Positions 39-23,165 of a DNA stretch of 25,088 bases are shown piece by piece; positions within the stretch are counted from its first letter, which is position 1; each line of letters starts with the position of its first letter. The stretch is taken from IMG/VR virus record IMGVR_UViG_3300023109_000128, positions 1-25,088 of that record; one strand, written 5' to 3'. Under the pieces are notes generated by a model. The model searched no databases and was not told the DNA's origin. It worked only from the letters and a program-made list of their open reading frames with translations. This stretch comes from a virus. The translations under genes and the position numbers were made by a program.

Positions 39-46
39 TATAAATA
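39..46 (+). promoter_or_regulatory. T4-type late promoter of the tmRNA gene
   Basis: The octamer TATAAATA is an exact match to the T4 late promoter consensus recognised by gp55 sigma with gp33 and the sliding clamp. In T4 the octamer ends about 7 nt before the transcription start, which predicts a start near base 53, right at the beginning of the tmRNA acceptor piece. The placement suggests that the tmRNA is a late phage transcript. Related NATAAATA octamers appear before several structural genes in this window. Confidence 0.75.
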
Positions 47-52
47 AAGATG

Positions 53-336
53 TTCGTTGATGAAGCGAGCGGAACGTATGCAGGACCGGGGGGCAGTACC
101 CCGCTGGTCCACCATAAGGGTATTAAGGTATCTTTGTGATGGGCCAGAACTAGGATCGACTGGTGCGGAAAGCAAGTGGAGACAAACCGGGTGGTTTCGT
201 AAGAACCAAATTAAAGTAAGAGCAAACAACTATGTAGCTCCTAAGGCTTACGCTCTCGCAGCATAAGTTCTTTGGGTATATTTCGGGGTGCCTAGAAACA
301 GAAGAGAGTCTACGGACTCTCACCCGAAGCATTTTT
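53..336 (+). ncRNA. ssrA: circularly permuted (two-piece) tmRNA
   Basis: The acceptor piece comes first (about 53-114): T-stem CGGGG 87-91 and CCCCG 99-103 enclosing loop GGCAGTA, acceptor strand CTGGTCC 104-110, discriminator A111, encoded CCA 112-114. An intervening segment (115-140) follows, then the coding piece from 141. Its 5' strand GGGCCAG 141-147 pairs fully (one G-U) with 104-110, closing a 7-bp acceptor stem. The conserved tmRNA 5' region GAACTAGGATCGACTGG follows at 147-163. A hairpin GGTTT/GAACC (193-207) occupies the pseudoknot-1 position. The tag frame starts at resume codon GCA 222 and ends at TAA 266. This order, 3' part before 5' part, is the known permuted form of alphaproteobacteria and a few other lineages, where the intervening segment is removed to leave two RNAs held by base pairing. 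A GNRA-free, non-TTC T-loop is as I recall it for alphaproteobacterial forms. With host SmpB it should rescue stalled ribosomes. The end of the coding piece is uncertain (about 325-336). Confidence 0.9.
222..266 (+). other. tmRNA proteolysis tag reading frame
   Basis: Reading from the resume codon GCA gives the 14-residue tag ANNYVAPKAYALAA followed by TAA. The terminal ALAA is the classic ssrA degron read by ClpX/ClpA, and the ANN start resembles bacterial tags that begin AN or AAN. The resume codon lies 14 bases after the 193-207 hairpin, the usual region for it. The longer open frame that begins at base 57 only exists because it runs through the RNA gene and is not a protein. Confidence 0.88.
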
Positions 337-337
337 T
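304..337 (+). terminator. intrinsic terminator and 3' stem of the tmRNA coding piece
   Basis: GAGAGTC 304-310 and GACTCTC 315-321 form a perfect 7-bp stem capped by TACG, a very stable UNCG-type tetraloop. Bases 282-289 can pair with 322-328 (one bulged G), stacking a second helix on the first. Six T residues at 332-337 complete a Rho-independent terminator. It separates the late tmRNA transcript from the next promoter, whose -35 box starts three bases later. Confidence 0.75.
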
Positions 338-339
338 AC

Positions 340-368
340 TTGACAAACTTCTCAAACATATATATAAT
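340..368 (+). promoter_or_regulatory. sigma70-type (early) promoter
   Basis: TTGACA 340-345 and TATAAT 363-368 are both perfect consensus boxes with the ideal 17-base spacer. The promoter directly precedes the gene at 397 and begins immediately after the tmRNA terminator. It should be read by unmodified host RNA polymerase, hence early expression. Confidence 0.8.
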
Positions 369-3856: not shown

Positions 3857-4471
3857 ATGAACTTAGTACCTATGGTTGTTGAACAGACCGGTCGTGGTGA
3901 ACGAAGCTACGACATTTACAGTCGTCTTCTTAAGGATCGCATTGTAATGCTACACGGTCCTGTTCGTGAAGAGTCTGCGAGCCTTATTGTTTCGCAAATG
4001 CTGTTTCTCGAAAGCGAAGACAACACAGCACCTATCAACTTTTACATCAACTCTCCGGGCGGTAGTGTAACTGCTGGCTTGAGCATTTATGATACAATGC
4101 AGTACATTAAGAGTCCGGTGGCAACTATTGTGATGGGGCAAGCAGCGTCTATGGGTAGTTTCCTTGCGCAAGCAGGCACACCAGGCAAGCGTTATGTACT
4201 GCCTGAAAGTCGCACTATGATCCACCGTGTGTCAAGTGGTACTCGTGGCACAAGCGGCTCAGTTCACGTACAAGAACTTGAGTTTGAAGATGCTCGGCGT
4301 CATATGGAAGAGAGCAAGTATCTTAACAAGCGTCTTACTGAGCTATACGTTAAGCACAATACAGCAGGCAAGACTTACGACGAGCTGTTTGAAACAATGA
4401 AGTTTGATACGTTTCTTAGTGCTCAAGAAGCTATTGACAATGGCTTTGCTGATGCGATTGCCGAAAGGTAA
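3857..4471 (+). CDS. clpP: ClpP-family serine protease subunit
   Basis: The product (204 aa) is an ATP-dependent Clp protease proteolytic subunit. The oxyanion block INSPGGSV is at residues 64-71, nucleophile Ser98 lies in GQAASMGS, His123 in RTMIHR, and Asp184 in [11 protein letters not shown], so the triad is complete. The His-Asp distance is about 12 residues longer than in E. coli ClpP, with the extra residues mainly in the glycine-rich segment after the His and the following helix. ClpP forms a tetradecameric chamber fed by ClpX or ClpA. The N-terminal [12 protein letters not shown] block (residues 18-29) is canonical. Neither ClpX nor ClpA is in the window, so it would rely on host unfoldases. 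Together with the phage tmRNA tag it suggests phage-directed proteolysis; a role in head maturation is an alternative, since ClpP-fold proteases do this in other phages. Confidence 0.93.
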
Positions 4472-19345: not shown

Positions 19346-19353
19346 GATAAATA
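19346..19353 (+). promoter_or_regulatory. NATAAATA late-promoter-like octamer
   Basis: GATAAATA begins three bases after the preceding stop codon and ends 15 bases before the ATG at 19369. The ribosome site ACGGAG lies at 19356-19361. Confidence 0.5.
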
Positions 19354-20165: not shown

Positions 20166-20696
20166 ATGCTTATAAAAACAGACAACCTCGGGGTGCCTCG
20201 TTTTACGAATAAAGATCTAATAGACATGATTTATCAGGGCAATGCTGATAAATGTCATGTAGTTCTCTGCGATCCAAGTGACGAAGTAGACAAGTTTAAT
20301 GCTGCTATGGAAGAACAAGGGCTGAGTAAACTACAGAAGTATATTTCGTTAGACGTAGATCAAAAGACCTTTGACACTGTATGTCAATCAGAATGGCTAA
20401 TGCCTCAGAAATACAAAGATATTAATGTACATGTGTACGTACTAGGCAAAGCAAAAACGCCGTGTCCTCAGGACGTGTTGGATCGTATATGGGAAGAACT
20501 AGCAGAGTTTGAAGAACACGGGATGCTGGATCTGTTACGCTACATGATTTATCTCGTAGACTTTATGCGAGAAAATAATATCGTATGGGGTGTAGGCAGA
20601 GGTAGCTCAGTCGCAAGCTACGTGTTATACTTGCTAGATGTACACAAGGTAGATAGTTTTAAGTATAATTTAGACTACAAAGAGTTCTTAAGATAA
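20166..20696 (+). CDS. DNA polymerase III alpha (DnaE)-like fragment protein (176 aa)
   Basis: The C-terminal third matches the start of the C-family polymerase palm: NNIVWGVGRGSSVASYVLYL (GRGSS 144-148), then a D-V-x-K-V-D-x-x-K-Y-N-L-D-Y-x-x-F-L pattern, equivalent to the DnaE GRGSAAGSLVAY region followed by TDVDPLKYNLLFERFL. The frame stops right there, before the catalytic Asp residues of DnaE, and lacks the PHP domain, so it cannot be an active polymerase. The first 110 residues (MLIKTDNLGVPRFTNKDLID onwards) include LGKAKTPCPQDVLDRIWEEL, which also echoes the helical part preceding the palm in DnaE. Length appears intact rather than decayed: codon use is normal and the neighbours are tightly packed. 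Possibly a decoy or adaptor that binds clamp or DNA; function unknown. Confidence 0.75.
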   Translation: MLIKTDNLGVPRFTNKDLIDMIYQGNADKCHVVLCDPSDEVDKFNAAMEEQGLSKLQKYISLDVDQKTFDTVCQSEWLMPQKYKDINVHVYVLGKAKTPCPQDVLDRIWEELAEFEEHGMLDLLRYMIYLVDFMRENNIVWGVGRGSSVASYVLYLLDVHKVDSFKYNLDYKEFLR

Positions 20697-22661: not shown

Positions 22662-23165
22662 ATGATGGATAACAAACATTGGGAATACGAAGACACCGAT
22701 ATGATTCTGTTTTGGAACGGAATCTTTTCTAACTGGTATCCAGCTGGCTTTGTAATTGAAGGTGTTGAGTATAACTGTGTTGAACAGTACATGATGGCAG
22801 AAAAAGCTCGCTACTTCAACGATACTGAAATCGAACAGAAGATTATGAACGCAACGTTCCCGGGCGAGCAAAAGAGTCTCGGACGCAAAGTACGCAAATT
22901 TGATGCTGACGCATGGATGGCAGTGTGCAGAGAAAAAGTACTTCCTGGTATTATTGCTAAGTTTAAGTCTCATCCATCACTTAAGAATCTACTGCTACAA
23001 ACAGGTGATAAGATTATCGCAGAAGCATCACCTGTTGATAAAATCTGGGGTATCGGGTTAGCGCCAGATGACACAAAAGCACAAGACCAAGCTAACTGGG
23101 ATGGTCTAAATATTCTCGGAGAGCTAACAATGGAAGCTCGCAAGCAATTAAAGGAAAATGCGTAA
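22662..23165 (+). CDS. NADAR/YbiA-like family protein
   Basis: The product (167 aa) matches the NADAR (YbiA-like) fold: FWNGIFSNWYPAGFVIEGVE, then YNCVEQYMMAEKARYF (about residues 38-53), FPGEQKSLGRKVRKFD, AKFKSHPSLKNLLLQTGDK, and the closing block IAEASPVDKIWGIGL with W-D-G-L-N-I-L-G (about residues 115-155). NADAR proteins include N-glycosidases acting on riboflavin intermediates and enzymes that remove ADP-ribose from guanine bases, the antitoxin partners of DarT1-type toxins. In a phage this suggests reversal of DNA ADP-ribosylation, an anti-defence role, though metabolic function is equally possible. AAAGG (22650-22654) favours ATG 22662 (7-base spacing) over 22665. Overlaps the clamp-loader start (TAATG). 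Confidence 0.85.
   Translation: MMDNKHWEYEDTDMILFWNGIFSNWYPAGFVIEGVEYNCVEQYMMAEKARYFNDTEIEQKIMNATFPGEQKSLGRKVRKFDADAWMAVCREKVLPGIIAKFKSHPSLKNLLLQTGDKIIAEASPVDKIWGIGLAPDDTKAQDQANWDGLNILGELTMEARKQLKENA

Follow-up and report, generated by a model that had tools for sequence, protein, structure and literature searches.

A two-piece, alpha-type tmRNA gene behind a predicted T4-type late promoter in a viral genome fragment, and putative protein genes in the spacers of related phage tmRNAs

Introduction

Two-piece tmRNAs have been published for the Methylophilales phage Melnitz (MZ577097) and the Pelagibacter phage Mosig (MT647606) (PMC9004378), and the two-piece tmRNA of Caulobacter is described by Keiler et al. 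2000, as cited in PMC9004378. Melnitz infects OM43, which is not alphaproteobacterial, yet it carries an alpha-type tmRNA (PMC9004378), and its authors term the ssrA promoter of this phage early. For mycobacteriophage DS6A, which has a tmRNA consisting of the tRNA-like domain only, a decoy role has been proposed. Phage tmRNA genes are known already, while their timing and role have been guesswork.

Here we describe a viral record of 25,088 bases (the window), the first letter of which lies 51 nt 5' of a complete permuted tmRNA gene. This element is a real two-piece tmRNA gene of the alpha type and belongs to the phage two-piece tmRNAs; since those of Melnitz and Mosig have been published, it is a new member only of a known kind. 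The strongest novel claim presented here concerns not the window itself but the promoters of its relatives and the genes found within their intervening segments (ITSs).

Results

The window was analyzed by cmscan, and model RF04321 (tmRNA_permuted) matched full-length at positions 52-266 with 102 bits (cut-off 47, E 3.7e-19) while RF01849 (alpha_tmRNA) matched at 12-314 with 76.9 bits (cut-off 50), so that the curated cut-offs of both the permuted and the alpha model were exceeded. The original prediction, made from the sequence and naming a covariance-model search as its check, had proposed a tmRNA in the permuted alpha-type order, and the two matches bear this out. Its further elements, a CCA-terminated acceptor end, a 26-base intervening segment, a GGGCCAG strand pairing over 7 bp with the acceptor 3' strand and an ALAA-ending tag of the phage's own, were all found in place (Table 1). 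The acceptor stem formed between the two pieces contains G3.U70 and is followed by A73 and CCA, and a resume codon opens a short tag frame which ends in a Clp-type degradation signal. ARAGORN made no call for the window copy and called the homologous gene, with a tag of the same kind, in two related loci (L027 and L028). A terminator scan of the + strand did not list the hairpin near the 3' end of the gene, since the T run there begins 11 nt past the stem.

Table 1. Features of the tmRNA locus in the window
Feature	Position	Strand	Basis or remark
T4-type late promoter octamer TATAAATA	39-46	+	TATAAATA or GATAAATA found here in nine relatives too
Acceptor piece (mature 3' piece)	52-114	+	sequence reading, cmscan, comparison of relatives
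5' hairpin of acceptor piece	52-70	+	
T arm, CGGGG GGCAGTA CCCCG	87-103	+	
Acceptor 3' strand CTGGTCC	104-110	+	sequence reading
A73	111	+	
Encoded CCA	112-114	+	
Intervening segment (ITS), 26 nt	115-140	+	hairpin by fold, expected to be cut out
Coding piece	141-331	+	3' end approximate; cmscan and relatives
Acceptor 5' strand GGGCCAG	141-147	+	7/7 pairing with 104-110, including G3.U70
D loop with TAGGATCGAC, then PK1 region	inside 141-331	+	
Tag reading frame, ANNYVAPKAYALAA then stop	222-266	+	resume codon GCA at 222-224
Alpha-type 3' motif CCTAGAAACAGAA	291-303	+	sequence reading
Hairpin GAGAGTC-TACG-GACTCTC (304-321), ACCCG, T run (332-337)	304-337	+	probable terminator or 3' end structure
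Perfect sigma70 promoter TTGACA-17-TATAAT of next gene (397-1674)	340-368	+	

The same tmRNA was present in nine further viral contigs, which were found with the invariant block GTTCGTTGATGAAGCGAGCGGAACG as search pattern, seven of the nine being recovered also by an independent coding-piece pattern. Two forms of the acceptor stem occur, GGGCCAG/CTGGTCC in the window and one contig (L114) and GGGGGTG/CACCTCC in the remaining eight, which differ by three compensated pairs and are identical at G3.U70; acceptor pairing is thus kept in related phages through compensatory changes. Within the T arm a C-G pair is replaced by an A-T pair among the relatives, and the same tag frame is present in them (ANNYVAPSRYALAA, ANNYVAPKTYALAA, ANNYVAPKAYALVA). 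Since L114 combines an acceptor piece and ITS as in the window with a 3' part of the type found in locus L109, modules of this tmRNA recombine.

A wider sample of at least 190 viral permuted tmRNA loci, at least 163 of them distinct, was assembled from an IMG/VR scan for the alpha-type coding-piece start together with the earlier loci. All seven acceptor pairs were formed in 162 of 163 loci among the matches listed, a figure which leans to pairing as the parser required at least six of seven, and pairs 4-6 switched among GC, CG, AT and TA across these 163 listed loci. G3.U70 was found in 163/163 of the matches listed, where G3 was fixed by the search pattern and U70 was free. The tag ended in ALAA in 119 of the 147 readable tags among the matches listed. 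Unusually long tags were seen in L153 (31 residues, ANDNVAVDNVVYANFGSQKALVSYENFALAA) and L250 (29 residues, ANDNVSNVFSFVDFGSLKNYVNEDYALAA).

The late octamer of T4 spans positions -13 to -6. Under this rule the octamer of the window gives +1 = 52, which is the first base of the block invariant in ten relatives, and the predicted transcription start coincides with the 5' end of the acceptor piece. The original prediction had placed a late octamer before the acceptor piece, and the spacing proved to be conserved: the [T/G]ATAAATA octamer and block GTTCGTTGATGAAGCGAGCGGAACG are five bases apart in 10/10, the block beginning where T4-type late transcription is expected to start. The octamer was judged by position only: shuffling gives 1.6 expected copies of TATAAATA in the window, where 1 was found, so that its mere occurrence is no rarity, and the three KATAAATA sites there are no more than chance would give. 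Two copies of GATAAATA, at 1871-1878 and 19346-19353, lie just 5' of the ORFs at 1884 and 19369 and are probably further late promoters. Because the perfect sigma70 promoter of the next gene starts directly behind it, the tmRNA is probably transcribed as a unit of its own.

For the wider sample, viral loci with full upstream sequence were grouped at about 90% identity into 123 clusters among the matches listed, and in 65 of these the distance from the end of the octamer to the CCA end was 64-73 nt, where shuffled sequences would give 0.4. The 86 distinct octamer loci among the matches listed included 56 in which an intact TTGACA precedes the octamer by 15-19 nt and another 11 in which five of its six bases match, where about 2.5 were expected. 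An octamer without a -35 box was found in 13/123 of the listed clusters. The octamer could accordingly be read as merely the -10 box of a sigma70 promoter making the RNA early, as postulated for Melnitz, and the TTGACA upstream of most sampled viral loci among the matches listed, like the term early used by the Melnitz authors, favors that reading. We consider it unlikely, since among the listed clusters with TTGACA and TATAA the continuation was TATAAATA, with ATA in place of the T of TATAAT, in 51/62 and TATAAT in only 9, and since the window octamer has no -35 hexamer upstream (best 2/6) while a separate perfect sigma70 promoter drives the next gene. Because TATAAATA rather than TATAAT follows in those 51 clusters, most of these promoters are composite and could in principle serve early as well as late transcription. 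The window promoter, as judged from its sequence, is the late-only form, a late element with no -35 box. No earlier description of a composite early/late tmRNA promoter was found in the open-access literature searched. A promoter of the late or composite kind, kept at a constant distance, speaks against the published view of a tmRNA acting only early.

The phage had been called T4-like in the original prediction, but it is no plain T4-like phage: judged by its proteins, the clamp loader (56%) and ClpP (69%), the nearest named relatives are Pseudomonas jumbo phages of the PA5oct type. Neither the tmRNA nor the whole window showed DNA similarity to named phages, and PA5oct has no permuted tmRNA. 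A gp55-like late sigma factor is encoded in three sister contigs (G002, G007 and G008), all with the same tmRNA; the search covered the window as a 25 kb fragment beginning just before the tmRNA gene, and the sigma factor was seen in the sister contigs. An alphaproteobacterial host, the other affiliation proposed originally, does not follow from the tmRNA type, as the OM43 phage Melnitz has an alpha-type tmRNA as well (PMC9004378). In the wider group, the permuted tmRNA of a related phage (locus L117, G032:C1:28086-28404) comes closer to the betaproteobacterial model (114 bits), and different phages of this group accordingly own tmRNAs of different bacterial types. A manA RNA motif (58.7 bits) was observed in the tRNA region of a relative (L037:2547-2754).

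SmpB was not found in any of the 26 phage records searched, so host SmpB would be used. This finding also lends itself to a decoy role, in which the phage tmRNA would bind SmpB or EF-Tu and dampen host trans-translation instead of performing it, for host SmpB would then be titrated and a DS6A-like molecule is reported to inhibit tmRNA. A decoy would, however, have no need of the tag frame, resume codon and degradation end, which are conserved despite a variable tag middle, and we hold this role to be very unlikely. Scans of the genome collection gave no exact match to the tmRNA core or D-arm/P2 block (the second pattern was too strict, as it had an extra N within the acceptor stretch), which argues against recent capture from a species in that collection. 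That the gene is a functionless passenger, recently captured from a host or decaying, is most improbable, for although its distribution is sporadic (absent from PA5oct and from 30/34 viral records searched, mostly fragments), the compensatory acceptor and T arm changes, the invariant 5' block, the promoter position and terminal ITS helix kept over many divergent phages, and the result of these scans all speak against it.

Other genes of the window were also observed. A full-length ClpP-type peptidase (3857-4471; PF00574, E 1e-60), in which visual inspection located the Ser, His and Asp motifs, lies 3.5 kb from the tmRNA, and it could act on tagged proteins with host ClpX/ClpA; since PA5oct has ClpP without the tmRNA, such a link is not obligatory. 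A NADAR-domain protein (22662-23165; PF08719) belongs to a family tied to ADP-ribose/NAD metabolism with possible counter-defence roles, and a stand-alone 176-aa piece resembling DNA polymerase III alpha (20166-20696; PF07733) is possibly a split or remnant gene.

The window ITS folds as a hairpin which is continuous with the acceptor stem and contains several G.U pairs, and it consists of hardly anything else. ITS length ranged from 5 to 499 nt (median 78) among the matches listed. The ITS ends paired over a median of 10 consecutive pairs compared with 4 in shuffled ITSs, and at least seven consecutive terminal pairs were formed in 79% compared with 6% in shuffles, again among the matches listed; in folds this terminal helix stacks on the acceptor stem. 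As the ends pair and the length of the interior varies, the helix is kept while the interior is replaced. Interiors of mid-length ITSs were not more stable than shuffles (median z -0.13) and no known RNA families were found in the ITSs of L108, L109 and L111, and we make no claim of structured RNA in ITS interiors.

An ITS of at least 130 nt was present in 41 distinct loci among the matches listed, nearly all with an open frame of 34-120 codons which takes up the greater part of the spacer and usually follows a ribosome-binding site. Two families recur among the matches listed, family A (MxWDWHWISWFKG..., 45-47 aa, 14 loci) and family B (MKNPLVQEVSKWM..., 38 aa, 11 loci); frames seen as single cases include 120, 75, 73, 67 and 62 aa. 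Pooled dN/dS was 0.18 for family A and 0.23 for family B, and differences concentrated at third codon positions, a pattern which other frames did not have. Protein-level selection on an ITS frame was thus observed in relatives and not in the window, where the ITS is 26 nt. For seven of the ITS protein groups, homologues with 38-74% identity are encoded elsewhere than in an ITS, many of them no more than about 1 kb from the tmRNA of other phages; one such homologue is the gene immediately upstream of the tmRNA in Melnitz. The existence of these stand-alone homologues indicates that the ITS genes are ordinary small phage genes which some lineages have moved into (or out of) the spacer. The 54-aa ITS frame of Melnitz begins MFKWLSKTRLVVITRDYFRERNRKADAKIPKYLSG, has 74% identity to the frame of L260 and is unannotated in the Melnitz record. 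The frames of family A, L180, L223 and Melnitz run past the predicted RNase P site before they reach their stop codon. None of the nested proteins matched a known protein family above cut-off, and no paper describing frames in the spacer of a permuted tmRNA was found in the open-access literature searched.

Discussion

We regard it as very probable that the window holds a functional, phage-owned, alpha-type permuted tmRNA gene which forms its own late transcription unit. This is based on the sequence, its structure and conservation, the alanine determinant, the tag, the promoter position and the lack of SmpB in the 26 phage records. By analogy with known tmRNA biology, a gp55-type sigma on phage-modified host RNA polymerase would start at about 52, and the 5' end of the acceptor piece would then be made by initiation, not cleavage. 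In the folded precursor the ITS hairpin would stack on the acceptor stem, a cut by RNase P would fall before G141, and tRNA 3'-processing enzymes would expose CCA114, the ITS being discarded. The two pieces would remain paired and be charged with alanine by host AlaRS via G3.U70. With host SmpB, the late-made tmRNA would rescue ribosomes stalled on broken mRNAs and add a tag of the ALAA type, directed to Clp proteases. Because late infection produces broken mRNAs, ribosome rescue is the likeliest function.

Since the same ITS position carries protein genes in relatives, their precursor would also be an mRNA, translated while intact and serving as tmRNA once cut. Translating and cutting one precursor should compete, because ribosomes could read the frame only by opening the ITS helix. 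For frames whose stop codon follows the RNase P site, we speculate that cutting creates a non-stop mRNA, the tmRNA's own substrate, and that the ITS protein accumulates only when trans-translation is overloaded. The nearest known logic is that of ArfA, the stopless mRNA of which is repressed by trans-translation in the account of PMC10107115. The full proposal, with the ITS serving a broad group of phages as a cargo slot for late genes, a dual mRNA/tmRNA precursor and an ArfA-like non-stop feedback loop, is offered tentatively and may well prove wrong. If true, placing protein genes inside the spacer that a structural RNA precursor discards would be a new form of gene packing and would link the making of tmRNA to translation of its own precursor. 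One nested-gene case occurs in a cultured pair, Melnitz on OM43 strain H5P1, and hence is testable now.

Compared with known systems, Melnitz and Mosig share with the window the alpha-type permuted gene, the encoded CCA, the ALAA-ending tag and ITS ends which form a hairpin, although the tmRNA cores have diverged so far that blastn does not connect them. Melnitz shares TATAAATA at the gene start but, unlike the window, combines the octamer with TTGACA and has a 142-nt ITS with a GGAG ribosome-binding site and the 54-aa frame, whereas in Mosig the octamer is lacking and the ITS is a hairpin of about 43 nt. The glutamine riboswitch of Melnitz (L292:666-714), which is said to control the tmRNA of this phage, is found between the coding piece, downstream of which it lies, and the late-transcription coactivator region, and because of this location it is unlikely to control the tmRNA itself. 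Rhodobacter phage RcRudolph (OP009285) likewise has a permuted alpha-type tmRNA, with a long helix-closed ITS and, in contrast to the window, no TATAAATA; this gene (L291:1451-1786, 103.6 bits) is annotated as hypothetical protein RCRUDOLPH_61. The alphaproteobacterial two-piece tmRNA (RF01849; Caulobacter) has the same gene order, TAGGATCGAC D loop and tag ending as the window. Its 3' motif is CCTGGCAACAGAA where the window has CCTAGAAACAGAA, its tag begins ANDN where that of the window begins ANNY, and in the window a late phage promoter replaces the housekeeping one and the 3' part is shorter.
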